IMG/VR virus record: IMGVR_UViG_3300033151_000226 | Coordinates: 1-58,994 of that record | Strand: one strand, 5' to 3' | DNA: 58,994 bases | Source of the DNA: a virus | Shown: in pieces, positions 3,575 through 26,500 of the stretch | How positions within the stretch are numbered: the first letter of the stretch is position 1 | How the letters are laid out: each line of letters starts with the position of its first letter | Made by a program: the position numbers and the translations under genes | The notes under the pieces: model-generated | Told to the model about the DNA's origin: nothing | Databases searched by the model: none | The model's input: the letters and a program-made list of their open reading frames with translations, nothing else

Positions 3575-3831
3575 ATTTCTCTTACTCCGTTTCTTGATTC
3601 TATCCAGTTGATTATTTCTTTAACATCACCGACCACCCTGTACCCGGTTTCTTCGTCACCAACGCCCTCGGTTGTTGTAACCCAACACTCATCTTCACGA
3701 TCATACGAAGGATAAATGGCAACGATTTTATCCCTGTCGATGTAAAGTGGCTTGGTAGTAAAACGGGGGCCATCCAGCCCGGTACCATCAGTCACAACCA
3801 TTTCAAACTCAACAAACCACTTATCTTTCAT
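3571..3831 (-). CDS. Hypothetical early protein, 86 aa
   Basis: An acidic protein with a mostly beta pattern ([13 protein letters not shown], then [20 protein letters not shown]) and a C-terminal helix ([13 protein letters not shown]). I do not recognise the family. The frame is open far upstream, but only inside the exonuclease gene. The ATG at 3831 overlaps the exonuclease stop (ATGA) and has AGGAAA in front, so it is the chosen start. It sits between the exonuclease and ssb genes, so it may be an accessory or inhibitor of recombination. Confidence 0.7.
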
Positions 3832-4514
3832 GCTGCTTTCCTCTGTGGTATTTCGACGCCAAGGCTCTCGATCTCCTGCGCCATGCTTTCGGTGAACTGG
3901 TTTATAGCAGATCTGACCTTGACCGTGTATGCGTCGGCCTTCACCAGCACGTACAACGGGGGCAACTTGGGATGATGTGATTGGAAGTACCAGCGTTGCA
4001 GGCCGGTGATCGCCATGGACCAGTGACACTGTTGCTTGTACTTGGTCGGCAAGGCTTCGGCCGTGTAGAGCTCGAAACGCCCAAACTCCTTCATCAAGTA
4101 CGGCCGGGCCATGCGTCGATATCCGATATGCGTCCGGGCCTTCGGGCACTTAGTCTCCCATCCCATCCCGGCACCTGGCAGCTCGATCAATCCATCAGGT
4201 GAGCAACCAGCTGAACCGGCGTCATTGGTGATCCACGCAACTTCCCGGATCTCCATGCCGGTTTCCATTTCAAACAATCCCCTGGCTTCTGCTTCGTACT
4301 CGATACCGCGATCGAGATCCTCAGACTTAAACTTGTCTTTCTCGCTGGTGAGTCCGAGCATGGCTTCTATCAGCTCGTCACAGTACATTGCGGCCGAACT
4401 CTGTATCTTTCCGGCGACACTTACTACCTTGCTGGCGCCGGACGCACTGGGGATCCCTTTCTTGAGCTCGAACCATTCATCGGTCATTTGTGCAATGTGG
4501 TCGTAGATAATCAT
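3828..4514 (-). CDS. YqaJ-type exonuclease
   Basis: A 228-residue nuclease of the YqaJ/lambda-exonuclease family (PD-(D/E)xK fold), which resects 5' ends of double-stranded DNA to give 3' tails for annealing. Visible motifs are the acidic helix RGIEYEAEARGLFEMETG (residues 69-86), SPDGLIE with D107, and WETKCP with E120 and K122, the core catalytic triad. It is encoded directly after the coiled-coil protein and ERF and before SSB, a classic two-component recombinase set. The start shares one base with the upstream stop (TGATG). Confidence 0.92.
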   Translation of the reverse strand: MIIYDHIAQMTDEWFELKKGIPSASGASKVVSVAGKIQSSAAMYCDELIEAMLGLTSEKDKFKSEDLDRGIEYEAEARGLFEMETGMEIREVAWITNDAGSAGCSPDGLIELPGAGMGWETKCPKARTHIGYRRMARPYLMKEFGRFELYTAEALPTKYKQQCHWSMAITGLQRWYFQSHHPKLPPLYVLVKADAYTVKVRSAINQFTESMAQEIESLGVEIPQRKAA

Positions 4515-6606: not shown

Positions 6607-6837
6607 ATGAAAGCAAAAGACGTGAAACACATAGCCCATTGCCGCCTTGTAGCCCTTACTGAACGTCTTGGGAACAAGATTGCGGCCGTGAACATGGTTA
6701 CAGAAAACAACGGTCCATCAGAGTCTTGGACGCGGAAGTTCTTAAATGAGGAGATCACCAACCCCACGGTTGATCGCCTGGATGAGCTGATCGCTGCACT
6801 GGACCTGATTGACAAAGCGGAAAAAGCCGCCGCATAA
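6607..6837 (+). CDS. Cro/CI-like helix-turn-helix regulator
   Basis: A 76-residue, single-domain DNA-binding protein. Helices around VALTERLGNKIAAVNMVTEN and SESWTRKFLNEEITNPTVDR fit a Cro/C1-type helix-turn-helix, and the DELIAALDLIDKAEKAAA tail is a final helix. There is no C-terminal peptidase or dimer domain, so it resembles Cro rather than a cleavable CI. It is the first rightward gene and has no ribosome-binding site, consistent with a leaderless message. It probably controls the divergent promoters at 6.5 kb. With no integrase in the genome, its role is more likely timing of early expression than lysogeny. Confidence 0.75.
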   Translation: MKAKDVKHIAHCRLVALTERLGNKIAAVNMVTENNGPSESWTRKFLNEEITNPTVDRLDELIAALDLIDKAEKAAA

Positions 6838-6910
6838 CCCAAGGTACAATAATTGTACCCAACACTTTACAGGGGATAAGCGTGCTACATATAGAAAGGG
6901 CCATAATGTA

Positions 6911-7636
6911 ATGGCCAGAATAAGAACGGTAAAGCCAGAAATGGCTCAGGACGAAGATTTAGCAGGATGCACATTTGCCGCCCAGTTGTTAGCAGTTAGG
7001 ATCCTCAACCACTCAGACGATGAAGGCTACTTCAAGGCCAATGAAATGCTGGTCCGGGCCGCCTGTTTCCCACTCATGGAACATTCACTGAACGTTCACG
7101 GATTACTCACTGAGCTTTCAAACATAGGTTATTTGCAGCTGGCAGAAGGCGCCGACAAGAAGTTATACGGGTTCGTCACGAAGTTTACGTCACATCAAAA
7201 GGTGAACCGTCCATACGATAGTAAAATCAAGCCCTTAGTATCATTCACTGAACATTCACTGAACGCTCACGAACCATTCACCCCCGGAACAGGGAACAGG
7301 GAACAGGTAACAGGTAACAGGGAGCAGGGAAAGGGTAAGGGAAAACAGCCGCGCAAAAAGCGCACGGCCCTGCCGCCTGACTGGATCCTTCCTGACGGCT
7401 ACCGCGAGTACGCTGTAAAGAAACGGCCGGAGCTCTGTCCTGATAAACTCGCAGCTAACTTTCTTGATTACCACATTGGTAATGGAAAGTTAATGATGGA
7501 CTGGAAGCGAACGTGGCAACGGTGGGTGCGAGAAGATCATGGACGAAATACCCGTAAAGGAACAGATAGCACTGGCCACCGCCCTGTATCAACTCCCGCC
7601 AGCAGAGGAAAGCAAGCCCTTGAACGTACAAGCTGA
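6911..7636 (+). CDS. Lambda O-like replication initiator
   Basis: The product (241 residues from the ATG at 6911) begins MARIRTVKPEMAQDEDLAG and continues into a winged-helix-like region (QLLAVRILNHSDDEGYFKAN, then a segment ending FTSHQKVNRPYDSK), the pattern of phage replication proteins that bind the origin. Residues about 126-146 are a low-complexity linker rich in Gly, Asn, Arg, Glu and Gln, encoded by a heptanucleotide repeat. A C-terminal domain follows (LPPDWILPDGYREYAV). The frame opens at 6809 but overlaps the repressor gene. AAAGGG upstream of 6911 supports the later start. It precedes a P-like gene, as in lambdoid phages. Confidence 0.75.
   Translation: MARIRTVKPEMAQDEDLAGCTFAAQLLAVRILNHSDDEGYFKANEMLVRAACFPLMEHSLNVHGLLTELSNIGYLQLAEGADKKLYGFVTKFTSHQKVNRPYDSKIKPLVSFTEHSLNAHEPFTPGTGNREQVTGNREQGKGKGKQPRKKRTALPPDWILPDGYREYAVKKRPELCPDKLAANFLDYHIGNGKLMMDWKRTWQRWVREDHGRNTRKGTDSTGHRPVSTPASRGKQALERTS
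7286..7347 (+). repeat. Heptanucleotide tandem repeat, candidate origin
   Basis: After GGAACA come two copies of GGGAACA, two of GGTAACA and one of GGGAGCA, then a degenerate purine-rich tract to 7347. The tract lies within the O-like gene. In lambda the origin iterons also lie inside gene O, so this is the best candidate origin. The 7-base period is shorter than usual iterons, so it could instead be a neutral repeat encoding a flexible linker. Confidence 0.55.
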
Positions 7637-8141
7637 AAAGATTGCCCGGCGTTTCTGGCAGAAGATGTTAGCCATTTACGGCCGCCAGTGGGAAGCCAGT
7701 TACGGGCACGTTGATGGTGATGCGTACCCGGAATGGCGTGACGCCCTTGCAAGACTGGAAACCAATCAGATCCAACGCGGCCTACTGGCTGTCGAGAACG
7801 AAGGCAACGAACACCCGCCCAACCTGATTAAGTTCCTGCGGTTGTGTCGCACTGTTGAGCCATACAGCAACCACAACAAAGCACCAGCACTACCAAGGCC
7901 AAAGCCCAGGTACAGTGTCATGCGGATAGAAATGGCCAAGCAACGTGCACTCACCGGCAAAGCCTTCAAGGTTGCGGATATCCCGGATAGGATGGTCATG
8001 GATTGGAACAGCGACGACGAAGCGGAGCTACTGGGACTGGTTACACAGTGGGATGATTCCACCGGGCTTGACGGCCTGAACTACTTGATTAACGGATTCG
8101 AGTTTAGTCACGGATCCCAACGGGACAACACTGCGCTATGA
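7539..8141 (+). CDS. Lambda P-like replication protein (helicase loader)
   Basis: A 200-residue soluble protein. The block RFWQKMLAIYGRQWEASYGH (about residues 38-57) followed by W..AL..L...QI..GL and PPNLIKFLRLC is the pattern of the phage replication protein P family, which brings the host replicative helicase to the initiator. It is out of frame with the last 98 bases of the O-like gene, a longer overlap than lambda's, with AGAAG before its ATG. It overlaps the next gene by 4 bases. No ATPase motif is present, so it is P-like rather than DnaC-like. Confidence 0.7.
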   Translation: MDEIPVKEQIALATALYQLPPAEESKPLNVQAEKIARRFWQKMLAIYGRQWEASYGHVDGDAYPEWRDALARLETNQIQRGLLAVENEGNEHPPNLIKFLRLCRTVEPYSNHNKAPALPRPKPRYSVMRIEMAKQRALTGKAFKVADIPDRMVMDWNSDDEAELLGLVTQWDDSTGLDGLNYLINGFEFSHGSQRDNTAL

Positions 8142-8584
8142 AACGATCGCTGTTTGTTACCGACAAAGAACACATCGAAGCCGCGGCCCAGGCTGTAGAG
8201 GAAATGGCCCAGGACGTGCGGGATCTGGCCAGCAAGGACATACCGGAGTTTGGCTTTCATATCACCTTCGGGCTCAAAGCGGGCAAGCGTACAACCAAAC
8301 AACGCAACGCCATGGAGGTTTATTTCAGATTATTGGCCGAAACCCTGAATGACGCGGGCCTTGATATGAAACGGGTATTGCGGGAAGAAATAGATATCCC
8401 CTGGGTGCAGGCCAGCGTAAAAGAGCACTTGTGGCGCCCGATACAGCTTGCGCTCACTGACAAACCATCCACCGCGAATCTTGAGCGCGACGAAGTATCA
8501 AAAATCTACAAGGTTCTCGATAAGAACCTGGGCGAGAAGCTCAAAGTTCATGTGCCATTCCCACAAAACAGGTATCCAGAATGA
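8138..8584 (+). CDS. Conserved phage protein of the replication operon, 148 aa
   Basis: The central block RTTKQRNAMEVYFRLLAETL, then KRVLREEIDIPWVQASVKEH and LWRPIQ, is one I have seen in uncharacterised phage proteins near nin-region genes. It is helical, with no catalytic residues I can name. Its position resembles ninB in lambdoid phages, but the sequence does not look like NinB to me, so I do not assign that name. It is coupled to both neighbours by 4-base overlaps and probably serves replication or recombination. Confidence 0.7.
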   Translation: MKRSLFVTDKEHIEAAAQAVEEMAQDVRDLASKDIPEFGFHITFGLKAGKRTTKQRNAMEVYFRLLAETLNDAGLDMKRVLREEIDIPWVQASVKEHLWRPIQLALTDKPSTANLERDEVSKIYKVLDKNLGEKLKVHVPFPQNRYPE

Positions 8585-8916
8585 CCATGGTAGCTGAAAA
8601 GAGAATTATCATTGATCGTAATTTGGCTTGGGGTGGGGAGCTCCAGCTGTACTACGCCGAGAGAGTCACCGGGGATCCGCAACAAACGTTTTATGCCAAG
8701 CCGATCGAAATGGGCACGCTGCCAAAAGGTTATGTGGTGCCGGGGCCAATGATGCAGCTGGATGATAACGCCAGCCAGCAACTCATGGATCAACTCTGGC
8801 TTATGGGTGTTCGGCCAAGGCCCGGCCTGCGGGATCCCCTGAACACTGAACACCTGGACGGGGAGATAGACTGGCTCCGGGGCGTAGCAGATCACCTAAT
8901 GAAGCGCGGCAAATGA
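8581..8916 (+). CDS. Conserved phage protein, 111 aa
   Basis: A small soluble protein with an N-terminal beta part (RIIIDRNLAWGGELQLYYAE) and a C-terminal helical part (QQLMDQLWLMGVRPRPG) ending HLDGEIDWLRGVADHLM. The second part is familiar from many phage proteins of unknown function encoded near replication genes. The start overlaps the previous stop (ATGA). No function can be assigned from sequence. It lies between replication genes and a Ref-like nuclease. Confidence 0.65.
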   Translation: MTMVAEKRIIIDRNLAWGGELQLYYAERVTGDPQQTFYAKPIEMGTLPKGYVVPGPMMQLDDNASQQLMDQLWLMGVRPRPGLRDPLNTEHLDGEIDWLRGVADHLMKRGK

Positions 8917-9242
8917 AAACAGGACTCCCGGCAATCACGGAGCCAGAATCGCGCCGTATTGATCGAATCAAACGTGAAGTCGGTTGTATCGCCTGTTTCT
9001 TGAACGGGCACCCACTGGGTACACCGGCCGACGCTCACCACCTGATAGACCCGGCCACCGGGAACAGGATTTCCCACTTGGCCACAATTCCACTTTGCAA
9101 GGCTCACCACCTGGGCCCGTACTCAATCCACAAACGCAAACTCTGGTTTGCTGGCCGCTATGGATCCGATCAGGATCTACTTGACGAAACAAACGCCCAG
9201 GTTTTAATTCTCGAAAACAACACCATCGGGGGTCCGATATGA
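8913..9242 (+). CDS. Ref-like (RecA-dependent) HNH-type nuclease
   Basis: A 109-residue protein with CIACFLNG (first metal-binding pair), ADAHHLIDP, ISHLATIPLCKAHH (second pair and His), and a tail with SIHKRKLWFAGRYGSDQDLL. This pattern matches the Ref family of phage P1, which with RecA cuts DNA at displacement loops, and short Ref-like proteins common in nin regions. The Cys-x2-Cys, HH and Cys-x2-HH positions would build the HNH zinc site. It overlaps both neighbours by 4 bases. The likely role is recombination or processing of replication intermediates. Confidence 0.75.
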   Translation: MKTGLPAITEPESRRIDRIKREVGCIACFLNGHPLGTPADAHHLIDPATGNRISHLATIPLCKAHHLGPYSIHKRKLWFAGRYGSDQDLLDETNAQVLILENNTIGGPI

Positions 9243-9496
9243 AGTTTCTTAGTCACAGGGATGCGCTAACAGAAGCAATGGAGAAAACCGCTATACCGTA
9301 CCCGGCTCGGCCCGGCGTGCACACGGAATGGAGTTACGACGTAACCCGGTTGGCCTTGGTCCTCATGGGCCTTGCACCAAACAGGGCAAGCGACGTGGCT
9401 TTCATGTTCGGGGGAATCCCCAGGAAGCGGCTACAATCAGGAGTTGATTACGTGAACGATCACAAACGAATGTCATTTAAGGGATCCACCGAATGA
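9239..9496 (+). CDS. Hypothetical protein, 85 aa
   Basis: A small, slightly basic soluble protein. The middle (SYDVTRLALVLMGLAPNRAS) is a hydrophobic helix pair, and it ends KRMSFKGSTE. I do not recognise it. It starts on an ATG overlapping the upstream stop and its own stop overlaps the next start. It has a place in the nin-like region between two nucleases, where small accessory proteins are usual. Confidence 0.6.
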   Translation: MKFLSHRDALTEAMEKTAIPYPARPGVHTEWSYDVTRLALVLMGLAPNRASDVAFMFGGIPRKRLQSGVDYVNDHKRMSFKGSTE

Positions 9497-9795
9497 GTAA
9501 GGGTATAAAGGTTCGCTGCATTGGCGGGCCAGCTGGCGGCCAAGAAATATTGGTGCTTCACGGTGAAACGTTCCGCGTTCCAGAACACCCGGATATGGTT
9601 ACTTGCCCATCGTGCGCTGGTGCTGATATTTACTCTGAACCAGAACCTATCCACTCAACGACATACAAAATACAAATGCAACATTTTGACTCTGGCCACA
9701 AACACGCATACGCAATACCGGAAAAGAACCAGCTGGTGTCGGCTTTCAACGAAATGTGGCACGAATATAAGGAAAGTATGAGGATGAAGAATTGA
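9493..9795 (+). CDS. Hypothetical protein with CPSC motif, 100 aa
   Basis: The protein begins with CIGGPAGGQEILVLHGETF, a beta hairpin start I have seen in uncharacterised phage proteins. It has one CPSC pair at about residues 38-41 and a C-terminal helix. A single Cys pair plus His residues (HFDSGHKHAY) could hold a metal. No function is assigned. It is coupled to both neighbours by 4-base overlaps. Confidence 0.6.
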   Translation: MSKGIKVRCIGGPAGGQEILVLHGETFRVPEHPDMVTCPSCAGADIYSEPEPIHSTTYKIQMQHFDSGHKHAYAIPEKNQLVSAFNEMWHEYKESMRMKN

Positions 9796-10238
9796 GTAGA
9801 AAACGCCCGGTAGACTGGGAGCACAAAGAAGCCGTGTTATTGATGGAATGGCGCAGACTCCAGGTAGGCGCATACCCACAATTAAGGCAACTGTTTCATA
9901 TCCCTAATGGCGGGAAACGGAACAGGATCGCTGGCGCAAAACTCAAGGCCGAAGGCGTGCGGCCGGGCGTAAGTGACTACTTGCTGCCGGTTATGCGTAT
10001 GAATTGGGAGAATCACGAGATCGAGTATTGCGGGCTCTGGATCGAACTCAAGGTAAAGGGCAACTACCCTACGCCAGATCAACATGAGTTTATGAATGAT
10101 ATGCGGGACCAGTCTTACGCGGCCTACTGGTGCTTTGGATGGGAACAGGCCGTTTCAATCCTTATGCAATACATGACCGGGAAACCGATAACAGCTGGCA
10201 GGGATCCAAAGCCGCGGGGATCCTACCAACTAAAATGA
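9792..10238 (+). CDS. VRR-NUC-type nuclease, TTG start
   Basis: This 148-residue protein fits the VRR-NUC fold, a PD-(D/E)xK nuclease family known in phages as Holliday-junction or flap nucleases. It has an N-terminal Glu-bearing helix (EHKEAVLLMEW), FHIPNGGKRN, then LKAEGVRPGVSDY with the metal-binding Asp, and LWIELKVKG with the Glu and Lys. These are followed by the Gln-containing helix of the family. The start is a TTG overlapping the upstream stop (TTGA), with GAGGATGAAG in front. It probably resolves branched replication or recombination DNA before packaging. Confidence 0.85.
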   Translation: MSRKRPVDWEHKEAVLLMEWRRLQVGAYPQLRQLFHIPNGGKRNRIAGAKLKAEGVRPGVSDYLLPVMRMNWENHEIEYCGLWIELKVKGNYPTPDQHEFMNDMRDQSYAAYWCFGWEQAVSILMQYMTGKPITAGRDPKPRGSYQLK

Positions 10239-10726
10239 AAAAACGGGGCGAACGTCAACACCATCAGATAGAAGTTACGTTCGGCCGCCGTCGTCGCATG
10301 GGTGAGTTATCCAGGGTGGCAAAGATTCGCCTTTATTCCTGGGGATCTGTGATCCGGGCCGTAATCATTGCTCAAGGCCCGGCCGCCAATCCTTACAACG
10401 AACAACCATTCACCAAACAAAGGGTAGATCTCGAAACGGTGCACGCTGTAGGCCAGCTGGCCAACAAGTTTGACGAAGCAGAAGAAGTGGACGGGTGGTT
10501 GTTTCCGTTGCGCGATAGATCCCCGAACGCTTACCGGGCCACGGTCATTCGATACATTGAGCGTGAGCACGGTGGCCACCAGCTCTCCATGGCAGAACAG
10601 GTCAGACGCTACAGTTACGCCACCGGCCAAAGCAAAAGGACGTATTACAACAACCTGGACCGCGTGTTGCAGCACGTCTGCGCCGAGATCCTACTGAAAG
10701 AAAACCCGGAGTTGAAATATGAATGA
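10235..10726 (+). CDS. Candidate late-gene regulator (Q-like position)
   Basis: The product (163 residues from the ATG at 10235) has a very basic N-terminus (FGRRRRMGELSRVAKIRLY), a middle helical domain and a C-terminal helix-turn-helix-like segment (YATGQSKRTYYNNLDRVLQH). The SKRTYY stretch is like the recognition helix of phage late regulators. It comes near the end of the rightward early operon, where lambdoid phages carry the antiterminator Q. The promoter-terminator leader at 58.1 kb needs such a factor. I cannot name its family, so the role is an inference from position and charge. The upstream extension of this frame lies inside the nuclease gene and is discounted. Confidence 0.55.
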   Translation: MKKRGERQHHQIEVTFGRRRRMGELSRVAKIRLYSWGSVIRAVIIAQGPAANPYNEQPFTKQRVDLETVHAVGQLANKFDEAEEVDGWLFPLRDRSPNAYRATVIRYIEREHGGHQLSMAEQVRRYSYATGQSKRTYYNNLDRVLQHVCAEILLKENPELKYE

Positions 10727-10991
10727 GAATTGCGATCACCAAACAGTCAAGTTGTACGAGCCTGGCGTGTGGAAGTGTATGGTTTGTAGGGCGGTATTCA
10801 TCCCTGAGATCCCAGGGCGTGAACAGCTTGAGAAGCAAACAGAGATCGAGAGATCTGCCATTGAAGTGAAGTTTCGCAAGGACAACGGCCAAGATCCCGA
10901 AGGCCAGCTACCTGAATACCTGTTCTGGAAGCTGCAATGGATCGAAGCCAATGCCAAGATTGATACCGTATGCGAGTATTTAAGGAAGTAA
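10719..10991 (+). CDS. Small zinc-ribbon-like protein, 90 aa
   Basis: The N-terminus has a Cys-x-His pair (ENCDHQTVKL) and then WKCMVCRAVF, which together look like a small zinc ribbon. The rest is helical and acidic, with KLQWIEANAKIDTVCEYL at the end. No family is recognised. Its ATG overlaps the upstream gene by 8 bases (ATGAATGA). It is the last gene of the coupled rightward chain. An untranslated stretch of 155 bases follows. Confidence 0.65.
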   Translation: MNENCDHQTVKLYEPGVWKCMVCRAVFIPEIPGREQLEKQTEIERSAIEVKFRKDNGQDPEGQLPEYLFWKLQWIEANAKIDTVCEYLRK

Positions 10992-11146
10992 CGGCTCCTT
11001 GCAATACCGGCCGGGCGTGGGGTCATTAGGTAATCTGTTGTGCTGGTCCGTTACTTTCAGGCGTGGTTTATTTCTTTCCCACGCCGGACATAGTTATAAC
11101 AGCCAAGAGAACCCGCTGCGTCACCTTTTAACGAACGGAGAACGAT
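10992..11146 (+). promoter_or_regulatory. Intergenic region with hairpin and -10-like box
   Basis: A 7 bp hairpin (GGCGTGG at 11060-11066 pairing with CCACGCC at 11079-11085) has a pyrimidine-rich loop. It is not followed by a T-tract, so it is not a clear terminator. TATAAC at 11095-11100 resembles a -10 box, but no convincing -35 is at the right distance. This is the only sizeable gap in the rightward operon, and it suggests separate control of the alpha-CTD gene that follows. Confidence 0.35.
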
Positions 11147-11575
11147 ATGTATTTTGAAGAACCCAAGCACATTAGAACCGTGTGCCCGTATTGCGGCCAC
11201 ATCGAAGAAGCCCGGCATACCGGCGATAAATATAGTGGGGTTGCTGTCTGCGGAAAATGCGTTAGTGAGTATGCGTACAAGATCAGTTTGGAAGTAGTCT
11301 CTACATCTTCAAGGGTCGAGTGGCTTCCAACGCACAGCCTAACTCCCAAGACGAAGTTGGTAGTCTCGGATATACCAAAAACACCAATAAAAGGCATGTT
11401 CTCTCTCAGGGCCGTAAACACGCTTCTTAAAAATGAGGTAACAACACTGGAAATACTATTAACCTACTCGGAAGTCGGGCTCTTGAAAATGCCGCTTATG
11501 GGTAAGAAAGTTCTTACAGAAATAAAAGACGCACTCGCCATGAAAGACTTGTCTCTAAGATCAAACTCGGCTTAG
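11147..11575 (+). CDS. Zinc ribbon fused to RNA polymerase alpha-CTD-like domain
   Basis: A 142-residue protein. Residues 13-38 carry two Cys pairs (CPYC and CGKC), a zinc ribbon. Residues 85-136 closely follow the C-terminal domain of the bacterial RNA polymerase alpha subunit. The LLKMPLMGKKVLTEIKDAL segment differs at only a few places from the E. coli segment. The DNA-contact residues equivalent to E. coli R265, N268, G296, K298 and E302 are present (R88, N91, G119, K121, E125), while C269 and S299 are changed to T92 and V122. In the host this domain binds UP elements and activators. The phage protein probably competes for these or recruits polymerase to phage promoters. GGAGA lies 5 bases before the ATG. 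It ends exactly where the giant gene ends on the other strand. Confidence 0.8.
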   Translation: MYFEEPKHIRTVCPYCGHIEEARHTGDKYSGVAVCGKCVSEYAYKISLEVVSTSSRVEWLPTHSLTPKTKLVVSDIPKTPIKGMFSLRAVNTLLKNEVTTLEILLTYSEVGLLKMPLMGKKVLTEIKDALAMKDLSLRSNSA

Positions 11576-14500
11576 TTACTTCCTACCAAACATCGGTGAG
11601 AAGTATTTGTAAGCCTTCGCGTCCTGGGCGTTCCGTCGCTCAATGATCTTATTGATCTTTTCGCGCTTCGCCTTCGGGTCCATCTTCGGATCTCTGTAGA
11701 TCCGGTCAATGGCCTTCCGCATCTTAGAGCGATCGCGGGCCCACTTGCCAATACGCTTGCGGGCTTTCAGCTGTTTGCGGTTATCTTCATCCATCAATCC
11801 CTCAATGCTCTCCCGATCGCCCTGCTTCTCATACGCCTTAACTGTGCCATACAGCTCGGTTACTTCCCGGTGGATCTCGTACATTTCAGTACCGTACCGG
11901 GTATTCCAGGCCGGGCCGGATCCACGATAGAAGCCGCCCAGGACTGGCAGCTGTCGCGCTGTCATTGCTGGTACTGGCGCCCGGCCCATGATCTCGCGTG
12001 TAATCACGTCGGCCGCCATGAGTGAGTAGCTTCCCAAGGTACCCATGTAACCACGTACCAAGAACTCGCCTTGTTTCGGTGATAGTCCCATGAGCTCAAG
12101 GAATGGGCCCATTGCTACCATCGTTTCGCTTGTCGAAGCGTTGTACCTGGACCGCTTCATCTTGTTGCGATCGGCCATACCTTCAATCGGCCGGCCAGTG
12201 AACATAGATTCATTTGCGAACACTTCCATGGCAGGCCGCATGATCTGAGGAATGGGGTTAGCCGCCATGGTATCCATAAGGGCATGGCCCATACGCTCGA
12301 ACAGTTTTTCGGGGGTGTCCTTGCCAATGGCGGCCCGGTACATTCTTTCCGGGATCGTGCCGTACAAGACACCCACTTCAAACGGTTTCGGGATCCGTGT
12401 ATGGAACTTAGTGCCCGGCATTAAGTGCCAGTACGCATCCTTATCCCATTCTTCCAGTGCTTCGTAATCCTCGTCACCGGAGTTAAGAGCTGCCAGTGCG
12501 GTACTGGCCAACGCGATCCACATGCCGCGCATGGCGATCTCTTTGGCAATCAGGCCCGGTACCGGCACCGCACCGCTGCGGCCGAGTTTGTATAAGCCTT
12601 GTAACCTGGCATTGAAGAACGGGAGCATATCGTTAAACATTTGGATCCACGCCCAGGATCCGTGCATAGAGAAGTCCATCAGATCCTTGGCTTCAAAGAT
12701 CGCTTGCCTACGTTCCTTGCCATTCTTGGTGGCAGCTTCGTAAACAGCTTCACGGTTAGCGTTCTCAACCGCGTCACCAACACGCCGCCAGCGATCCCAC
12801 ACGCCAGCTGTCAGATCAATGACGGTATCAAGGTGCTCTTGTATGTATTCATTGTCGTAACCCTTCAACCGGAGCGCGACACGGATGCTCTTGCGGGATG
12901 CGTCCGGGTCGGTGCCGTTGATGTAGCCGCCCTGGAAGGATCCACCGGCAAACATCATATCGAGCATACCGCCTTCTTCTTTGGCCGACTTATACAGGCC
13001 GTGCACACTGTCGACGATCGGTATGAAGTGATCCTCGTTGATAACCCAGGCGTGCAATGTATCTCGCGTGAAGTTTCGCGCCATGAAGCCGGGCTCTGAC
13101 GTAATCATGGTGGTGAGTAGCGTCTTGGCCGCACGCATTGGTAGGAACAGGCCGCGCAAAGATTCGATATTCACGTTGGTAAGCGACTTGAGCAACATCG
13201 GATCATTGACCCGGTAATACTCAGGCTTGCCGTCGCGCATGACCTTGACTACTTCCTTCCCGGCTGGTTCGGCCATGGCCCATAGTTTCGCTATTCCGTC
13301 GAATACTCCGAGCTGGCCCATCATATCGAGTATTTCTTCGGGGATCCCATCTTGCAGCATCATTTTCTTAATGCCGCCCCTGGGTATCAGTTTCGGATTG
13401 AACTTAATGCCTTCCTTGTCGAGAGCTCCGGTGCCGTCGAGTGCGTCAACTGTCTCCAGGACGGCCAGATTCTTCATAGACGCTTCAATCAGGTGATTGA
13501 AGTTCATAACGATGTTACCAAGTGGGTCAGATAGTGCGCTCTCGCCGCCGACAAGCCTGCGGATCCCGCTTGTCTGGTGTGATAGGCCCATTCCCTTGCC
13601 AAACTTGATCCCGCCACGCTGCCGGGCGTTATCTACGCGGTAAAAGGGTATCCAATCGGCTTTATCCCACACTGGCCGGGTTTCTTCGTCGATCAGGCCA
13701 GCACGTTCCGCGAGATCAAGGATCCTGCCTTTGAACTCGGCAAAGTCCTCGGCCACTTTTTCGTAGAGATCCTTACGCTGTACTGTCACGCCGTTGCGTT
13801 CCAGGGTGCCATTGGCCAGTTCAAGCCCGGCCGCGATATCGGTATCGTCGAAGTTGCGCTCTTTTTCTTCTTCCATCAAACGCTCGGCCCGGCGTGCGAT
13901 CATCCAGCCAAGGAAATCATCAAGCTCTTGTTTGACTGGCTCGAACACGTCCAGGAGCCCGCGGCTGCCCGGTACCTTGCTGATAACTCCACCACGCCAC
14001 TCAGGAGCGCCGTGTAGCAGGATCCCGCGCATTACACTCGCGGATCCCGTTGATAGCCTTGCTGCAATGTAACCATCCATTGCCGGGGTTTCTGTTTCGT
14101 CCAGGTAGTCCCGGTACGCACGCTTGATCCCGTAGAATTTATCGAACAGGCCGTGCTGTATCGCGTCTGAAAGGTTGCGCTTGGATTCGCGCCACTGGAT
14201 ATCCATGTAACCGCGGAAGGTATCAATCAAAGATCTGCGCTGGACCTTCATGCCAGCTTTCTTCATAAACTCTTTTTGTTCTTCGGTGTACTTGCGGTTG
14301 AAGGCCGGTTCCTGGCTGGCCAGCTTGTTGCGTAACGCAATCTGTCTGTGCAGTCTCTCTCTGGCCTTTTCGGACACGGCCCTTGCCGATTCCATTTCGG
14401 CTTCCAGTCGATCAACGGCCGGATCCTTGATGATCTCCTGCATCAGCTTGACCTGGCGTAATGGTTCGACGGTCGTTCCATTCTCCCAGTCGGCTTCCAA

Positions 14501-17500
14501 CTCTTTAACCCGCCTGCGTAGTTTCAGGTTCATTGAGATCTGTTCTTTCTTCGGGGCGGCCATAAACATCTTGGCAAACCGCAAACGCTCACCGATCTGC
14601 GCTACCTTATCCCCTGCTACCTTGAGATCGTAGTTCGCATCAAGCATTTGCTTTTCGAGATCACCGGATCTCCGTTTAGTAAACTCAGACTGGAACATTG
14701 GATCTTGCCCGGCCGGGGGCGTTTCGGCTTGGCTTTCTTCATACTGCCCAAGGATCTCTTGAACGTCCGATATCATGGTGCCCAGGTCCGTGAAGTATTT
14801 ACCGGATCCCATACCGCGGGCTTTAACCTTCTTCTGGAAGGATTTGAGGATATCAATGATTGCATCCAGGATCCGCTGGAATAGGTTGCGGTCTTTCTTC
14901 GCCAGCTCCCGGATAAAGACAGGATCCATGAAGGCGTCACCAACCACGTTGGCTACCATTTCCCGGAACATCTGAGTTTCGTCGTCGGCTTCTTGCCGGG
15001 CAGTGTCCTCGGTGTCCTCTCGCATCTTGTCGGAAAACTTTTTCAGGCCGCCGAGCTGCACATGACGCATGGCCACGTTGACGATCTGATCCCACAATTC
15101 CGGGTGAGTCTGTTCCAGGGTATGCGCTAACTCATGGCCAGTGACGCCCAGGAATGGATTTTGATTATCAATGTTGACGTAGATTGTCTTGGGATCACTG
15201 GGAAGGGCCACGCCGTTGAACGGGTAGTTTAGGTGTTCATCCCCGGTAGCCTTGAAGAATACGACTTTCTTACCGTAAACCCGCTGGACCGCTTTGACAG
15301 CTCCCGAAACTTCCGTCGGTGCCGCTACTTGCCGGTACGTTCCAGTCTTGACCTTCACGCCCAGGAAGCGGGCCATTGCCTGTTCGAGCTGCTTTGTAGC
15401 CGGGGTGATCCGGCCGAGCCCAACAACCAACCGCTTAACCTTGGCGCCGAAGCCGAGATCGAGCCCGTTCTTTGCGAACATCGGGAAGCTGGCCATAGCC
15501 GCGTCGTACATATCTTCGGTAATGGTGAGTGCGTGTTGCTTTGATGTGCCGCCGTGCAACATCTTGTCCATTGCGGCTTCGGCTTCATCCTTGGTATTAA
15601 ACCCGCCTTCGTAGGTGTAGCCCTCGCCGTCGGTAACGGCCCAGTTATTCATTCCCATCAGCTGCACCGTTACTTGGTGCGGATCCAAGGCTACGCCTTC
15701 GTCCTCCATGCGTTCGTCCAACTCGATCATATCGGTGGACATATCGCGCAAAAACCCTTCTTGAGCCGGGGTTATGCTTATGGATTCATTGGTTAGAATG
15801 TCGTCCGGGTGGCTAAAATGATCGCCCTGGTGATCGAGCATCTGGTTTTCATCCATCCAGTTTTCAAAGCGCGTTTCCAGATCCCCTCTCTCGCTGCGCC
15901 CTGGTTGTTTCGGGATCTCGATCTCACCTACCCGGCCGCCCCACTTCTTAACGAACTTGTTGGTTTCTTTGACAAGGATATTGTCGTAAAAGCCCTTCAT
16001 GCCCTCGCCGCCGACTTTCAGATCCAGGCCGGAGAACATATGGCCGTTGGTTCCGAGATCTATTTGCTCGGCCAACTCGTCTGTGACCTTGTTCACTCTG
16101 GTAAAACTCGCGCCAGCCTGCTCCATATCCGTAAGTTTTGATGATAGTTCTTTTTTCTTGGCCCGGCGTGCTGCTTCCGCTTCGAGTATCTTTTCAGCCA
16201 GTTCTTTGCCGACGTGATCTTCTAATGTTTCATCAGTCGGGTATATATTCTCAATACCGCCTTTCATCAGGCCGATCTCAAGCTCCCACTCGCGGTGCTT
16301 GTCGAGCCGCAACGCGCTACCTTCCGGTAGGTTCGACTGGACACGGCCCGGCCCGGAGCCCGGCTTGTACTTCGGTTTCGCGGTGATCCATTTGACGTGC
16401 TTGCTCAGATCGTAGCGTTCGGCCTGCTGCTGCCCGGTTGTCCAGGCAATCGTATCGTAGCCATTTTCAGCTGCATAACGGATCATCCGTTTCATGGCCA
16501 GCATATTCCAGCCTTTCTTGAATGGTGCGTCCGGTACGCCGCTGCGCTTGTTTATTGATCTGTAATATGTGTTTGCCAACTCTCTGGTGGAAAACGCTAC
16601 AGAAGGATCATGTACTGCACGCAATCGCCATTTTCCATTAGCTTCGTACACCATCCCGTCTGGTATTTCTTGTGATTTATACCCTTTCTTACGCCCGGCC
16701 TGGTGCCAGTCGCTCTGGATCTCCTCAATGAAAAGGATCGTTTCGCCGTTGGGCCCGGTGCGAGTATTGAAACGAATATGAACAATGATGTTCCTTTCGT
16801 CAAAGTGCTGTCCCTTGTAGGCGTCTTTCTCAACATCAACGGTCGTAGCTTCTGGTTTGGTAAGGTGCTTCTCGGCTTCTTCCCTTGTCGGGTAGCCTTG
16901 TTCGGACCATTCGCCATGTGCGGTTATCAGGAAATAATCAACTTCGCCGGTTTCATACCCACCACGAACAGGATCAAAGTCCCTGATCTTGTGCTCTCTC
17001 ACTTCCACGAAACCCTTTTGGGTTGTCCGGGTAACGGTTTCTTTCTGTACGGGGATCCGCAATATGAGCTCTTTGTATTTATCGCCGCCCGGTAGCTGCC
17101 AGTTTGCGTACTTCGTTGGAAAGCCGGTGTTTAGAATGTTCTCGTCGTTAAGTACCTGGGTGATAGCTTCTTCTTCGGTGGAATAGCTATCGGTAACGAT
17201 ATCCATTTCCTCGTCCTGGACATAAAACCCGTCCGGGCCTTCCACGACGCCAGCGCCAGTTGGCAGCATATCAATGGAAACAGTGTCAATCGTGTAGCTG
17301 ACCGCGCCCGCATTTTTGTAAGCCAACTTTGCGAACTCACGGTAAACGTGGTGCGGAAGGTTCTTGAAGATTACCTTGTCGCCTTCATGCCGGTAGTTGT
17401 AGTCCTCGTAACCTTCGGCACCCAAGTCTGTAAGATAGTTCTCTGCCGCGTCCGGGCCGTGTGGGGAGTGCTTGAAGTTGGCTTCGCCGGATACGGTAAG

Positions 17501-20500
17501 GAGACTTTCGCCCTTTTGGTCCTCGATCAACTCAAGCTGGTTTTCAGCTACAAAGTCCTGCAACTCTTTCCGGGTAGTGGATCCTTGCTCGTCGAGCCAT
17601 TCATCCAGGCCCATCCACTCGCGTTCCTCGGCTTTGAACTTGCCACCAGTCTGTACCATTTCGCCGGTTTTCTTACTGCGCTTCAATCCCTGCTGGCCGT
17701 TGAGCCACGTTTTATACAGTTCGGCCGTGCCTTTCTTCGGCATACCCTCGGCCTGGTTGACGGTTTCCACCAGTGCGGAGAAGAATGGATCCGTACCAGC
17801 TGGCACCTTCCTATGAAACTGGGGATCCTGCTCGGTATCAGCTGCCGGGGTCTTATCACTGTCGGCACTAAGCAGATTCATTACTACTTTGTACCGGGCC
17901 CGCGCCGTTTTCAGTTCCTCGGCCTGGGCGTATGGCTTCTTAATTGCTTCACGCTTAACGGCTAACGTTTCGGTATCTTCTTTCAGACTGTGCTTGGCAT
18001 AGGGGTTTTCTTCGTCATAGGAACTTACCCGGTTCTTAATTCTGGTAAGTGCGCCTTCGCCACTGAAACTATCAATGTGGGTGTATGATTTTACGTTCTC
18101 TACCGTCTTGCCTTCGATAGACATATACATCTCTAAGTTGCCCCACATGCTATGGGCCATGGACACATCAAAGCCGCGGTAGCTGAACAGCTTAACGGGC
18201 ATTGTGCCTGGATCTCGTTTCTTGTTGGCGACGTAACCCTTAACTACACTCTCGATCGCGGTAGCGGCCTTACCAACCTTCGTATAGTTGTTTGCGCCAA
18301 CCTGGAGAGAGAATTTATCTGGTAGTGGATTGGCTTCTCTTACAGCAACAAGCCTTTTCATACGATCTACTCTTTCTTCGTATCGGCCCTGTGGCCCGCC
18401 GTCTTTCTCAAGGCGCATGATTTCTTCTTCATCGTCAAATCGGCGTCTTGTGTGTGCGGTTTCACCCAAAGAGAGTTGATTGATCTTTTGGGATAACTCT
18501 ACTTGTTCCAGCATATAAGGATTGCCGGACGCTGCCGCTTTCATTTCTGCTGCGTTGGCTGCTTCCCCGCCGATATCTTCCATTACCCGGCCTGGGTTCT
18601 CTACGTACAGCTGCATGATGTACCGGGCTTTGGTTTCCTGTACTTGCCACATGCGAGAGTCATAGGTTGATTCTGTGGCGTATCGCTTGATCTCGATCTC
18701 GAACCCGTCTGGATCCTTGGCAAAGAAACTATTGCCGCGTCGAATGATCCGGCCTTCGCGCTGAGTTATATCAGCTGGCTTCCAAGGCGCGTCCAGGTGG
18801 TGAAGTGCGACAAGCCTTTCTTGCACGTTCATACCGGCGCCCATCTTGAAGGTGGACCCAAGCAGGATTCTGATTTTCCCGCTTCTTACTTGCTCAAATA
18901 GAAGTTGCTTACGAACGTCAGTGTTGTAATCGTGAATAAACGCGATTTCATTGTCCGGTATTCCCTGGACGGCTAACTTGGCCCGCATATCGTCATAGAC
19001 GGAAAACTGGGAAGTCAGTGCCGCAACGTCGTCTGGACTGTACCTGTCGAGCTTCTTCTGTGCTGGCTTGCTTATCGTCTGGTTCGGGCTATCTGCTTTA
19101 ACCAGTAGTTCACGATACTCCCGCTGCTCTTTCTTTTGGGTTCCCTTCGGGGTTGAGAGATCAATAAACACCAACTGGGTGCCCTTATCAGCGTTCCATT
19201 TGTCGTATGTCTTTTTGATGTTGCGAACAGCAACGTTCGTTTTACTGTCTGGATTGTCCGGTAACGATGGATCAATGAGTCGCATATCCAGCGCGGCCAA
19301 CCGTGCGTGGTATGTGATCGTAAGCATGTTGTCGTCGCCCTTGCCCGGCCTGGTGGGTAGGTTCTCGGCCCGGTGGACGATCTGTGCCATAAATTCGGCT
19401 TGCTCTGCGGATCTTTCAACAATTACGTTTTCAGGTTTGCCGCCCTTGATCTTCGGTATTGGCCAACGCTTGCCCGCTTCTGCGTGGGCCTTCATCAACT
19501 GTTCGTTGGTCATTTGGTCGGCAAAGGTTCGATAGATCCCTAACAACTCTGGCAGATTCTTGAACGATCTGAATCGTTCCTTCATCTTGTAGCCTTGCGC
19601 GGTTGAGTCGAGCTCTGCTTCCGATACGATATCGGCAAACAGGGCGGCCCAACCGTCGAACATATCCATGTTCCTTTCACGTAACAGGTTCGGGGCCACA
19701 TACCTGAACATGGTGTAGAGCTCGGCCACGGTATTACTTACCGGGGTGCCAGTTAAGAACGTAACCCCGCGCTGGCTACCGTTTATTTCCCTTGTGATCT
19801 CTGTCTTGAGATACAAGTCAGAAGCCTTTTGTGAGCCCTTGGTGTCGCCCAGGCCCGCAATGCGTGTGTGTTGGGTGGTGTAAAACAGGTTCTTGAACTC
19901 ATGCGCTTCGTCAACAACCAGATCATCAACGCCCAGTTCGCGCCAATCCATGAAGTCGTCAGTCTTAATCATGGACTGGTGGGCTTCTAACTTGGCCTGT
20001 AGTGATTCCTTCTTCTTTTGAAGCTCTTTGTATGACTTGTCGGACTTACCGGCCGCCACTTCTACCGCGGCTTGGCTTATTTCGAGATCCCGGATCTGCT
20101 TCGCGGTTTGCTTGGCCTTGTCCTCTGGTGACGTGTCTATCCGGCTAAAACTCGAATGAGCAACGATTACCGCGTCCCAGTCGCCCGTCGCTATCCTGGC
20201 AAAGAACTTCCGGCGATTGTCTTTCTGGAAGTCCTGTTTAGTCGCGGCCAGTACGTTCGCGTTCGGATAAAGGAAAGCAACATCTTCGGCCCACTGGGTT
20301 ACAAGGTGGTTCGGAACAACAATCATGGGCTTATTGACCAAGCCCATGCGTTTCTTTTCCATGATCGCGGCAATCGCTAAGAAGGTTTTGCCAGCTCCGA
20401 CAACATGATCTATCAGTCCGTACCCGTCTGATATCAGTCTCCAAGCACCATTCGCTTGGTGAGGATCCAGCGTGATCGAGTTGTTCATCCCAGGGAAGGT

Positions 20501-23500
20501 TAAAAAGGATCCATCAAATTTCTTTTTAGCCTGGGTGTTGAAGTTGTCGTTGTAATGCCGTACCAGCATTGACCGGCGTTCCGGTGTTTTCCACAACCAT
20601 TCCTGGAAGTGCTCTTGCAGTTCTTTCCGCTTTGCGTTTGCTTCCTGTGTGGCCACCGCGTCAACGGACGTAGATCCGTCGTCATTCTTGAATGTGACCT
20701 TTACTTCTTTGCCCCGTATGGCGTGGTCAATAATGCGCTGCAACGATACTGCCTGTGTAGCGTATTCACGCGCTGCAGGCTTCGCTTGGGCCCATGCCTT
20801 TTGTGAACCTTCCCACCTACCCAGGGCAGGAATGTAGGCATATGACGTATTCCATCCAGTGAGATCTTTAAGATACTCGTTCATAGTGTCCGGTGGGATC
20901 CATGGCGAGTGCATATCACTACTAATCTCGATCGCCGGGATATCCGCGGGCTGTACTTCGGCCAGTGCTTTGATGTTTTCCATCATGTTCGAGTCGGTTT
21001 CTGACTCTGCGCGGGCTTCGGCCAGCTTGCGCTTGACGTTTCCTGACAGGTATTCAGATCGGATTACATACCCGTCCTTCGGATCCCGGAACAGTTCGCC
21101 GCCCTCTAACAGTTCCTCGGCTACTTCTTCTTCCGTATTGCCGGTCAATTCAGCAATGCGTTCAAGATTGGCCCGGCCAGTCTCGTTAAGTGAAATCAGA
21201 AGGCCGTCACTGGCGCTGTCGGCGTGGTTCGGTGGTGTTTGGGGTATCGCTACTGCTTTCTTGAAGATATCCGCTTTCCCGGCCTTCGACGCGGCTACCT
21301 GTTGGCCGGTGTTCTTCGCTACCGTTGCGCTAACTGGTTTTGAGTAATCAGTTTCAAGTGCCAACAACCTGGGGAAGTCTGGATCGTCACGCAAAGCCAG
21401 CTTGTTCTGTTGGTCGTGGAAATATCCATGCGCTTTCTGAAATGCGTTGTAATGCTTGTTGAGTTGGGCACGCAAGAGTTTGAGCGCGGCCGGGGGTGAG
21501 TTTGGATTGATCTCGGCTTTGAGTAGGTTGTTAAGCGAATCACGCACGCGGATCCCGCTAATCATCCGGTCCCTGGCTTTCTTGTTCCGCAGGGTTGCTG
21601 GTTCGGATCTGAATGTCGTATTCCCGTCCGGGTCAACTACGTCGGGTAAACGCTGGTACACATTGCCCTTGCTTTCAAAGTAACCATGCACCTTGGCCGT
21701 TGTATCTACTTGCAGTTCAGCGTCGGGAATGGGTTTTTCGAGTCGCTTCCTGGCCTTCGTGTCTACCTTGTAGATCCTGACTGGCAGCATTTCGACTGCA
21801 CTCTTGATCTGGTTCGGAAGGGTTCTCTTTTCGTTCGGGGCCAGTGTGGGCTCGTCCTCACGATACATGGATCCAGAACGTTGCCACGTACCGAGCATCA
21901 TTTCGGGATATCTCGCAAAATACTCGTTTGTCACGATATCTTCGCCGCCCAGGGCGTCGGGGATCTCTGCAACGTTCGTCCAGTTCAGGCTTTTACTGGG
22001 TTCACCTGGGATGCGTTTCTGCAAAAAGATGATATCCGTAACCACTTCGGTTAAGGCATTTTCCTTGAAGGCCGTGTTTGGTAGGCGGATCGCGCCCAGG
22101 AAGTCTGCTTCGCTTTCAAGGTACTTCCGGGTTTTCGCTACCTTCTTGTCCATCAGGTGACGCGAGATAACCATTGCCACCAAGCCACCAGGCCGAACCT
22201 TCTTAATGGCTTTGCCAAAGAAGTAGTTATGAATTGACCAGCCGGAGATATCACGATTGGCCATATCTGTGATCGGGTAATTGCCGAATGGCGGGTTGCC
22301 GATAACCAGATCGAAGGTGTTGTCCTGGAAGGGGATCTCTTGGAAGCCCTTTTCCGCGTGGACCGTAGCTTGTGGGTACAGCTGTTGAGCGATCCGGCCG
22401 GTGATACTGTCGAGCTCTACACCTACCAGTCGGGACTTGGCCCGCATAGTTTCAGGCAATAGGCCAAAGAAGTTACCAGTGCCTACCGCTGGCTCAAGGA
22501 TCCGGCCGCCCCGGAAGCCAAGGCGCCTTATACCCGCGTAGATCCCTTCGATAACGTCAGTGCTTGTAAAGTGAGCATTGGTTGTAGATCGGCCGGCCGC
22601 TTCCAGTTCTGATTCAGTGAGCACGGCTTCAAGCTCTGGAACTTCTGATTCCCAACCTTTTGTAATGCCCTTGCTTGGGTGCCTGAACGCTTGCGGGATC
22701 CCGCCCCAACCAACATACCGGGCAAGGGTTCTCTGTTCTTCTGGCGTGGCCATTCGTTCGGTCTGCTCAAGATCCTTGAGAAGCTCGATAGCCTTGATAT
22801 TGTCTTTGTACTTGGTTTTTGCCCCACCGGATCCGAGCTCGTCGGATGGTGTTATGACATAGTTTGACCCGGCATTGGCTCCGGTCGTTCGATCTGTACT
22901 GTCCCCAGTTCGTCCAGGTACTCGTTCGTTTCCTGCTGGAGATCCTGTAGTTCCTGCATCAACTTCTGGCCTTCCGTCAGTGGTTCCTCGTCCTCGCTCT
23001 CCGGTGGCAGTATCAGGTAGTTGTTCCGTACTTCCATCCACGCTTCTTGGTGGCTGTACCCGCCCTCCATCAGCTCGTCGATCTCCCTCGCTGTCTGGTT
23101 CGCTGCGTCCTGTAGTGCCTGTTCCAGATCCTTCGACTTCTTGAGTTCCAGGTACATCGTCGGCCGGTGCTCCTTCCAGTGCGCCCTTGCCTTCGCTACC
23201 CAACCTCTCAGCTGTCTTTTCATTTTCCGTTTCCTCTGTATTAAGTATAGCACCTAAACCCTCTTTTATGTCCCCAAACAGCTCACCTTGGTCGGTGGTG
23301 GTTGGTTGTTCGGTTTGTGCTACTGCTTCGGCTCTGGCTTCGCCGCGGCTCTGGTATTCGGCTTCTCTGTGCAACGCACGCCACGCGGCCATTACCGCAC
23401 TGTCCTCAAGGATATCGTGCCTGTCCCACATCTCCTGGACGGTGCCTTGCTTGATCGCTACTTTGAGCTCTGCAAGTGGCACGCCGATATACCCGGCATA

Positions 23501-26500
23501 TTCTTTGAGTTGCTTCGGGGTCCAGCCATGGCCGATATCGTCTGCGCCCATTTGCTCGGTATCGTCAAACTCGGCCGTGCCCATCTTTTCTTCGGTAATC
23601 CGATCGCGTATTGCCGGTACTGCTTCGCCAATGCGTTTCGAGTTGGCCCGGAGCCGGTTTGCGTCACTGGTAATGACCGGGGCTTCGTTGCCCGGCCAGT
23701 ATTCTTCGATAACCTTTTTGAGATCCAAGAGCTTCTTACGATTGGCTGCGATACCAAGCAAGTGCACGGCCTTCGGTGTTGGGCCATGCCAGTTACGAAA
23801 CAGGTTTTCGATATCTTGCGGGCTCATGGCTTCGGCTTGACTGGGGAGCCCAAGCACGTAATTACCATCACCAAACAATGCGCCCAGGTGCTTAACCGCT
23901 TCAAAGAAGCCGCCGTCACCCTTCTGGACCGGCATTATCAGATTGGTTTTCTTGGCCAGTCGCATGAGTGCGCTCATGTGTTCTTTCTGGAGCTCGATCG
24001 TGCGGGCCTGCTTGCCAACAACATCGGGAGCAACGATCCATAGTGTTTCTTTGCTGCCTGTTCCAACCGATTCTACAATAGCTTCGTACCTGGCTAATAG
24101 TTCGTCAAAGGGTAGCTCTGCCAAAGCCGTTGCAGCGTCCTTCTCGGCCTTGGTAGTGGCCTTATCGTAAGCTGCCAAGGACTGTTTGAACGCGCTGTAT
24201 GCACCGGAATCAATAAATACCGGGTGTCCATCCTTCGCCATTTCAATAACCTGGCTGGTCGCGGATCCTTGCAACTCTGGAAGTGCCACGCCTACTGCCT
24301 TGCCTGCTTTCTGGTAGCCGCTAAGATCTCCGGGCCTGCTGGCGCCGGAACGGAACGAGTACACGCCCTGGACAAACTGCGAGTCGTTGAGGATCCGTTG
24401 GGTAGTTGATACGTCCGGCTCGGCCGGGGCGGGCACCTTGAACAGATCCGCAACATCAACGACGTTGAACAGGTATAGGCTCATGCCTTCGCGCTCTGCG
24501 ATCGTTACGTTGTTTAAGCTGATACCGGCCATTGTTACCCGGTTCATGTTGTCGCCGCGGATCCGCGCTTCTTCAACGGCCGCATCAATCAACCAACGAT
24601 CGAGTTTATTGCGATCGTTCTTGGCCTTCTGGCCAACGCCAAAGCCACTATCGTTCTCGGCATTGAATAACAGGCCACGCACGTCCGGGAAGGTGAGCGT
24701 CTGCCCGCTGCGGGTTGTTACGGTGTCGGCTGTTACCTTCGGCGTGAACTCGCCTGAAACGTTGTCACCCTCGCGCATGGTGCCGGTGTAGCCTTCGACG
24801 GGTTCTACGTCCCTGGCCGTACTGTTGGCCATGAAGAACGCATACGCAAAGCCTTCCGGGGTCTGCGATCGCCGGGCCTTATCTTCTTCCACGTCACCGC
24901 GGAGTTTGTGCATTAAGGATCCGAGCGTTGCTTCGACGTTCGCGGTCGGCAATGCGGGATTGAACTCGCCCCATAACTGGGTAGTCTTGGTGTACGGGTC
25001 GCCGTAATGGTGGGGCTGGAACACCAGCAATGGTTTTGGTAGGTTCGCTTCTGTCGCTATCCGGCCAATGGGGTTCTCAAGCACGTAAAACGTGGGATCT
25101 GTGAACTCGATAATGACTTTGGTTACATCAACCAGGGTTGTGGCGTACTCAAGCGGAGTGTCGAAGTAGTCAGTAGCCCATAGGCCGTACTTCTTCTCTA
25201 CCATTGCCGAGCTCTTGAGATCGTGTTGTGTTTTCCACCACCGGGCACCGGATACCGCAAACGACGTGCAAGGGCACGCGGCCAGTATGCCTACAACCTT
25301 TTTACCAGCTTCGTGGATATCTAAAATATCCCCTGTTGGCATGAACCGGACCAGATCATCACCGTCTTTGATATCGTAACGGATCACGTCATACCCGGCG
25401 TCTACATACGGTTGACTCCATGCACCAGTGGTATCAAATAGGCTGAGTATCACTTCTCTGCTGTGATCTTCTTCCCGGCCGATCCGCTTGGCTTCACGTT
25501 TCCAGGCTTCCAGCTGTGCTGCTGCCTGCTGGCTGGTAAGTAGCTGGTCGCCAATATGTTTCTTTGCAAAGTGCTTTTCTTCGTGTGCCGGGAATATAAC
25601 GTCCTTGGTCTTGTACCCTTCTGCCTGAGTCTGAGCCAGTTCCGGCGTGATCTTCTGATCCGCACGATCCCGCAAGGTGCCGTTATACATGATCTTGACG
25701 TAAAGGTTGCCGTTTTCGTCGGTAATCTTGGCCGTACCGAGATCCCTTGAGCCCGCACCAGTCTGTTGCCGAAAATCATTCCACTTGTCAATCGCGTCCT
25801 GGACTGATTTAACTTTGAACCTGTGTGGGTTGTCGCCTTCCTTGGGGCCACCCCACTCAACAAAGAATTGCGGGCGATACGCAATCGCGCTATCCGGCGC
25901 CGTGTCGAACGATTCCAGCTGTTCCTTGATGGTTCCCGCTTCCGTTTCTGCTTCTGGTACTGGTTCTGTTGCTGGTTCCGGTTCTGCTTCTGGTTTCGGC
26001 AATACAGATTCGGCCCATTCCTCTAACCTGGAGTCGCCCCAATTCTCGGCCCGGTCGCGCCATTGAAGGTGCCCGGTTACTTCCCGGCCGTCTGCTGATC
26101 GAACTACAGTCTTGTTGGCACCACCGCGGGTATCCTTGAGCTGCATCTTGATTGCCGTACCGTTTGGTAGCTTGATAGTCCTCGTTACGTTCGATTCTTC
26201 CCACAGTGCTTCGTCGGATTGTCTCGCTTTCTTCCAACGCTTCTCGCCTTTAAGGTGGCCTTCGAGTAGTTCAACTTCCTCGAACATGCCGCCATGCTGT
26301 TCCTCGATCTTGCCGGTGAACTCTGCCAGATCTCCCTTGAAGTAGGTTTCTTCCCGCGTGGCCGCCTGCTTGAGCTCTTTCTGTTTGCCCTGGTTGAGTT
26401 TCTTACGAACCGCAAGCCAATACTCCGTCCAAGTCGGGGATCTGCCGAGATCCTTTTCAAGCCTGTTCCAAAGTTGCGTAGCCCGGCTTTCCTGCATACT

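Follow-up and report, generated by a model that had tools for sequence, protein, structure and literature searches.

Why would a virus carry a gene that ends in the C-terminal domain of the RNA polymerase alpha subunit (alpha-CTD), the part of the enzyme where bacterial activators and UP elements mainly dock? The window analyzed here, 58,994 bases long, is an entire virus-type record, and the gene in question is laid out as follows.

Positions 11147 to 11575, plus strand: alpha-CTD-bearing ORF of 142 aa (CxxC/CxxC N-terminal domain, linker, C-terminal alpha-CTD)
Positions 11183 to 11323, plus strand: zinc-ribbon-like N-terminal domain, residues 13 to 59 (two CxxC pairs; PHROG matches)
Positions 11384 to 11557, plus strand: alpha-CTD, residues 80 to 137 (Pfam PF03118, AlphaFold2, Foldseek, residue map)

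We favor, with a probability of roughly 0.5, the reading that the product of ORF 11147-11575 is an early phage regulator that depends on the host polymerase and whose captured alpha-CTD binds A/T-rich upstream DNA. This reading is based on a true alpha-CTD, separated from the alpha assembly domain, that keeps its central DNA-gripping residues. Free of polymerase, the domain would sit in the minor groove of A/T-rich, UP-like stretches that precede promoters; a second contact, to DNA, RNA, or host polymerase, would come from the putative N-terminal zinc ribbon and would decide between activation and block of the bound site.

An earlier note on this DNA had matched residues 85 to 136 to the gammaproteobacterial alpha-CTD and had proposed a profile search against RpoA and a structure prediction; both agreed with it. 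Pfam RNA_pol_A_CTD (PF03118; cutoff, 23.8 bits) matched residues 85 to 131 with 33.3 bits (E = 4e-8; 34.3 bits in the genome search) and was the sole Pfam family above cutoff in the protein. From residue 85 on, alpha-subunit models led the NCBIfam matches, with scores far under the full-length cutoffs, as expected for a lone domain. In a phmmer search of the PDB, every significant match was RpoA; the E. coli alpha-CTD (E = 5.5e-6) was identical at 24 of 53 aligned residues (45%) and scored 29.9 bits versus ∼16 for Bacillus, so the gammaproteobacterial assignment held as the best match, yet the domain is far diverged. AlphaFold2, given the protein aligned to 17 viral alpha-CTDs, returned pLDDT values of 91 to 97 across residues 81 to 140, and the top Foldseek matches in the PDB were all RpoA alpha-CTDs (8y5t_A2 at 0.8 Å over 60 columns), which rules out an unrelated helix-hairpin-helix (HhH) family. 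Best matches to such a family, the outcome that the earlier note had named as counting against it, appeared in none of the Pfam, PDB, and Foldseek searches. DnaE matches to the alpha-CTD region were dismissed as HhH-like chance similarity. The RpoA N-terminal assembly/dimerization domain is absent: only 79 residues precede the CTD, and Pfam found no RpoA N-terminal family in them. We conclude that the C-terminal domain is a true alpha-CTD homolog, not a generic helix-hairpin-helix, and that the protein is not an RpoA.

Residues were mapped in E. coli numbering, and positions were assigned to DNA, CRP, and sigma contact as is established for E. coli; the assignment of R265 is also given in PMC2988021. 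As the earlier note had it, the equivalents of R265 (R88), N268 (N91), G296 (G119), K298 (K121), and E302 (E125) are kept, and C269 and S299 are changed (to T92 and V122); it had missed the change of N294 to L117 and a one-residue deletion at E261. Three of the eight residues of the DNA (265) determinant therefore differ (C269T, N294L, S299V). By its sequence, the DNA-gripping core is preserved, though incomplete, and the changes at S299, N294, and C269 may weaken or alter its binding to UP elements. Neither of the RpoA-type contact surfaces is present as a whole: positions 258, 259, and 261 of the sigma-contact (261) surface are changed or deleted, and the CRP-contact (287) surface carries E288G and R317N, with S-E-V at 285 to 287 close to T-E-V. 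The E. coli RpoA CTD thus shares the fold and the five named residues with the window domain, which differs from it at these positions and in being detached from the alpha N-terminal domain.

The N-terminal half has two CxxC pairs (Cys 13, 16, 35, and 38) and matches two PHROG families (phrog_14328, E = 2.6e-5; phrog_6504, E = 8e-4), neither with an assigned function. All Pfam zinc-ribbon matches to it were subthreshold, and AlphaFold2 gave this half and the linker low pLDDT, with two short strands predicted at low confidence. These data weakly suggest a zinc ribbon. Of the earlier claim that a zinc ribbon replaces the alpha N-terminal domain, the CxxC/CxxC arrangement and the missing RpoA domain stood, and the ribbon itself is weakly supported. 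Short stand-alone proteins of weak similarity occur in one viral contig (L220) and in Vibrio phage eugene 12A10, where the gene for the 63-aa protein lies two genes ahead of the primase/helicase; the simplest history would be that a phage zinc-ribbon protein of this small kind became fused to an alpha-CTD.

Whole-protein searches found no close relative in viral contigs, GTDB genome contigs, or E. coli genomes, and no relative across most of the protein in phages and plasmids. The domain itself is widespread. Searches of the viral contigs with three domain patterns yielded 22 contigs, the best 80 of 129 relatives, and 11, respectively, leaving 83 distinct sequences once identical proteins were removed; the alignment scanned with Pfam also holds 83, namely, the window protein and 82 of the distinct contig proteins. 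About 80 distinct viral-contig proteins thus have an alpha-CTD without an RpoA N-terminal domain. In a pattern-limited scan of genome contigs, RpoA of Gammaproteobacteria or unclassified Proteobacteria accounted for all of the best 80 matches, which agrees with the gammaproteobacterial assignment, and among the matches listed in score order for 369 gammaproteobacterial genomes, almost all frames were of RpoA length. Fecal "phage" records that matched the CTD proved to be mainly fragments of bacterial rpoA or dnaE and were set aside; many MT83xxxx and OR84xxxx records of the phage collection carry plain bacterial rpoA or dnaE and resemble host DNA. Full-length rpoA on Clostridioides difficile plasmids, where it is part of a ribosomal operon, was left out.

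Pfam recognized the alpha-CTD in all 83 aligned proteins, sigma-70 region 4 in 21, other HTHs in several, and RpoA N-terminal families in none. The partners in viral contigs vary (sigma-70 region 4, other HTHs, short helical domains), and the alpha-CTD is C-terminal in 69 of the 79 ORFs with an intact 5' end, consistent with a portable C-terminal DNA-binding module that phages would have attached to sigma region 4, other HTHs, NinX, or a zinc ribbon. Two CxxC pairs ahead of the alpha-CTD were found solely in the window protein and in no relative; two contigs (L025 and L026) have the pairs and the alpha-CTD in reverse order. A recurrent family of ∼115 to 154 aa combines an "MTxE" helical N terminus with a C-terminal alpha-CTD (L156, L166, L167, L170, L173, L175, L176, L189, and L190).

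The sigma-70 region 4 fusions (among them L158, L169, L185, L186, L195, and L200) join two domains that are neighbors at the −35/UP DNA in the holoenzyme. Like the window protein, those of L158, L186, and L195 have a C-terminal alpha-CTD and lack the RpoA N-terminal domain; they differ in an N-terminal sigma region 4 plus coil in place of a zinc ribbon and are nearest to Firmicutes-type RpoA. Pfam found no Sigma70_r4 match in the window protein. Because such fusions imply promoter-proximal use in other phages, and some zinc ribbons contact polymerase, the window protein might be an adaptor whose ribbon docks on the host polymerase, adding a third alpha-CTD and diverting the enzyme to those phage promoters whose upstream DNA is suitable. 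We consider this unlikely, given that polymerase binding by the ribbon is putative and that the stand-alone ribbons of other phages have no assigned function.

Conservation among the relatives points to DNA contact, in keeping with the favored regulator. R88 (R265) and E125 (E302) are invariant across the 83 aligned proteins. Because every search pattern itself dictates some of the residues of the domain, only positions outside the pattern were counted as conservation. Conservation of 294 to 302 in the first contig set was accordingly discarded as evidence, since the search pattern selects it, and the second set was used. Among the 67 helix-1-pattern proteins, E302 was kept in all 67, G296 in 64, K or R at 298 in 60, N294 in 58, and S299 in 54, and R265 was kept in 8 of 8 proteins that have a residue there and were found only by the other pattern. 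The CRP-contact residues V287 and R317 and the sigma-contact residues 258 to 261 are not conserved among the phage relatives. As far as sequence can tell, then, phage alpha-CTDs conserve the DNA contact, the trait kept while V287 and R317 drift, and not the activator and sigma surfaces; the window protein breaks this rule at N294 and S299.

The same surfaces bear on whether the protein is a possible "mimic" or decoy: a free alpha-CTD would compete with host alpha for UP elements or for activators such as CRP and so lower host transcription. The retained R265 and the S-E-V at 285 to 287, resembling the CRP-contact surface, fit competition of this kind, and phages do attack alpha: T4 Alt and ModA ADP-ribosylate its R265 and so target the alpha-CTD/UP-element interaction (PMC2988021), and phiKMV-like Rac cleaves alpha (PMC7552054). 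Those proteins differ from the window protein in that they modify or cleave host alpha. We nevertheless judge a decoy improbable: the protein differs at E288, at R317, and in the 261 surface; its phage relatives let the activator and sigma surfaces drift freely; and a lone weak domain could rival polymerase only if highly expressed. The three changed residues of the DNA determinant likewise speak against calling the protein a mimic of host alpha. To our knowledge, none of Alt, ModA, and Rac has an alpha-CTD of its own.

Capture lineage was assigned by best-reference scoring against E. coli, Bacillus, Bacteroidetes, and cyanobacterial alpha-CTDs, and not by a tree, because 50 to 60 residues are too few for a phylogeny. 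Twenty-six domains, including that of the window protein, were clearly nearest E. coli, 20 were nearest Bacillus, and 8 were nearest Bacteroidetes, with 34 undecided. This split suggests that the alpha-CTD was captured repeatedly, from hosts of several lineages. A broader proposal, which we regard as rather doubtful, is that phages of many host lineages repeatedly captured the host alpha-CTD as a free-standing promoter-upstream module and that here, coupled to a zinc ribbon, an alpha-CTD in trans steers the host polymerase to phage promoters.

The genomic setting of ORF 11147-11575 is that of an early-type gene.

Positions 6607 to 11575, plus strand: early-type operon (PHROG and Pfam matches plus ORF reading)
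Within that operon, plus strand: small HTH-like ORF (ORF reading only)
Within that operon, plus strand: replication initiation protein gene (PHROG/Pfam match)
Within that operon, plus strand: match to a P-like helicase loader (PHROG/Pfam match)
Within that operon, plus strand: Ref-like nuclease gene (PHROG/Pfam match)
Within that operon, plus strand: VRR-NUC-like protein gene (PHROG/Pfam match)
Positions 10232 to 10726, plus strand: operon ORF (ORF reading)
Positions 10719 to 10991, plus strand: operon ORF (ORF reading)
Positions 10986 to 11088, plus strand: predicted structured leader in the stretch from the upstream gene to ORF 11147-11575 (two predicted hairpins, inverted repeats)

ORF 11147-11575 is the last gene of this rightward operon, with its ATG at 11147, a Shine-Dalgarno-like GGAG just 5' of it, and its stop at 11573 to 11575, directly adjoining the end of a convergent 6100-aa gene (11576 to 29878, minus strand). 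The product of the latter combines inorganic pyrophosphatase, N6-methylase, SNF2 helicase, and LPD38 domains in a giant polyvalent protein. Those window genes that were scanned, with the 6100-aa protein covered in two halves, showed neither a phage RNA polymerase nor a sigma factor; for this reason, the host polymerase is the proposed target on which the ORF 11147-11575 protein would act. Searches anchored on neighboring genes (the C-terminal part of the 6100-aa protein and ORF 10232-10726) found no related phages.

The company of Ref-like, VRR-NUC-like, and replication genes would also suit generic nucleic-acid binding, in which the helix-hairpin-helix serves replication, recombination, or nuclease targeting instead of transcription. 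To this we assign a low probability, since the domain is specifically an alpha-CTD, the only general HhH family seen (HHH_5) was a weaker match in a few relatives, and the recognizable partners in relatives are transcription domains. At 45.0%, the G+C content of ORF 11147-11575 is the lowest of the 34 window genes compared, and its codon fit is the poorest, which suggests late acquisition, although the gene is short. The same two traits, with no close homolog found, could describe a recent insertion that is decaying or neutral and serves no purpose; this is very improbable given an intact ORF, a plausible ribosome site, retained core residues, and a well-predicted fold.

The hairpin stems of the leader, found by inverted-repeat search, are AAGTAACGG/CCGTTACTT and GGCGTGG/CCACGCC. 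Its RNA fold reached −39.3 kcal/mol (z = −2.0; 7 of 200 shuffles were equally good) and had no significance when a longer stretch was folded; with so modest a z-score, the hairpins are possibly due to chance.

The earlier note knew of no well-described phage system of this type. We likewise found no functional study of phage alpha-CTD proteins in the open-access literature (subscription papers were outside the scope), but the domain is common in phages and sometimes so named: uncultured Caudovirales phages have database entries titled "RNA polymerase, alpha subunit, C-terminal," Rhodococcus phage Finch has one such entry, and the alpha-CTD gene of Bacillus phage Goe8 is annotated as RNA polymerase subunit alpha. 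Neither the zinc-ribbon plus alpha-CTD architecture nor so broad a set of fusions appears to have been described. If phages carry a detachable alpha-CTD, these proteins are natural tests of what the domain can do without polymerase, and they form a class of regulators, for host takeover or phage promoters, that has been left unstudied in spite of its abundance in viral contigs. The fusion set is also a practical resource, in which partner domains hint at the promoter-complex surface that each protein addresses.

Four isolate phages have an alpha-CTD above the Pfam cutoff: Mecenats66, Ruegeria phage V16, Goe8, and Microbacterium phage Mazun. Morganella phage Mecenats66 (L002, positions 3617 to 4180) fuses DUF2591/NinX to the domain. 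Like the window protein, this is a small early-type phage protein with a C-terminal alpha-CTD (24.6 bits, above cutoff); it differs in its NinX partner, its linker, and a K at R265. We know of no function otherwise assigned to NinX. The Goe8 protein (∼210 aa) and Mazun gp26 (141 aa) both end in an alpha-CTD, whereas their N-terminal halves are unrelated to that of the window protein and the Goe8 domain resembles Firmicutes RpoA. In Mazun (L009), the alpha-CTD gene 26 lies near the opposite-strand 13.5-kb gene 32, an arrangement also seen in the window.
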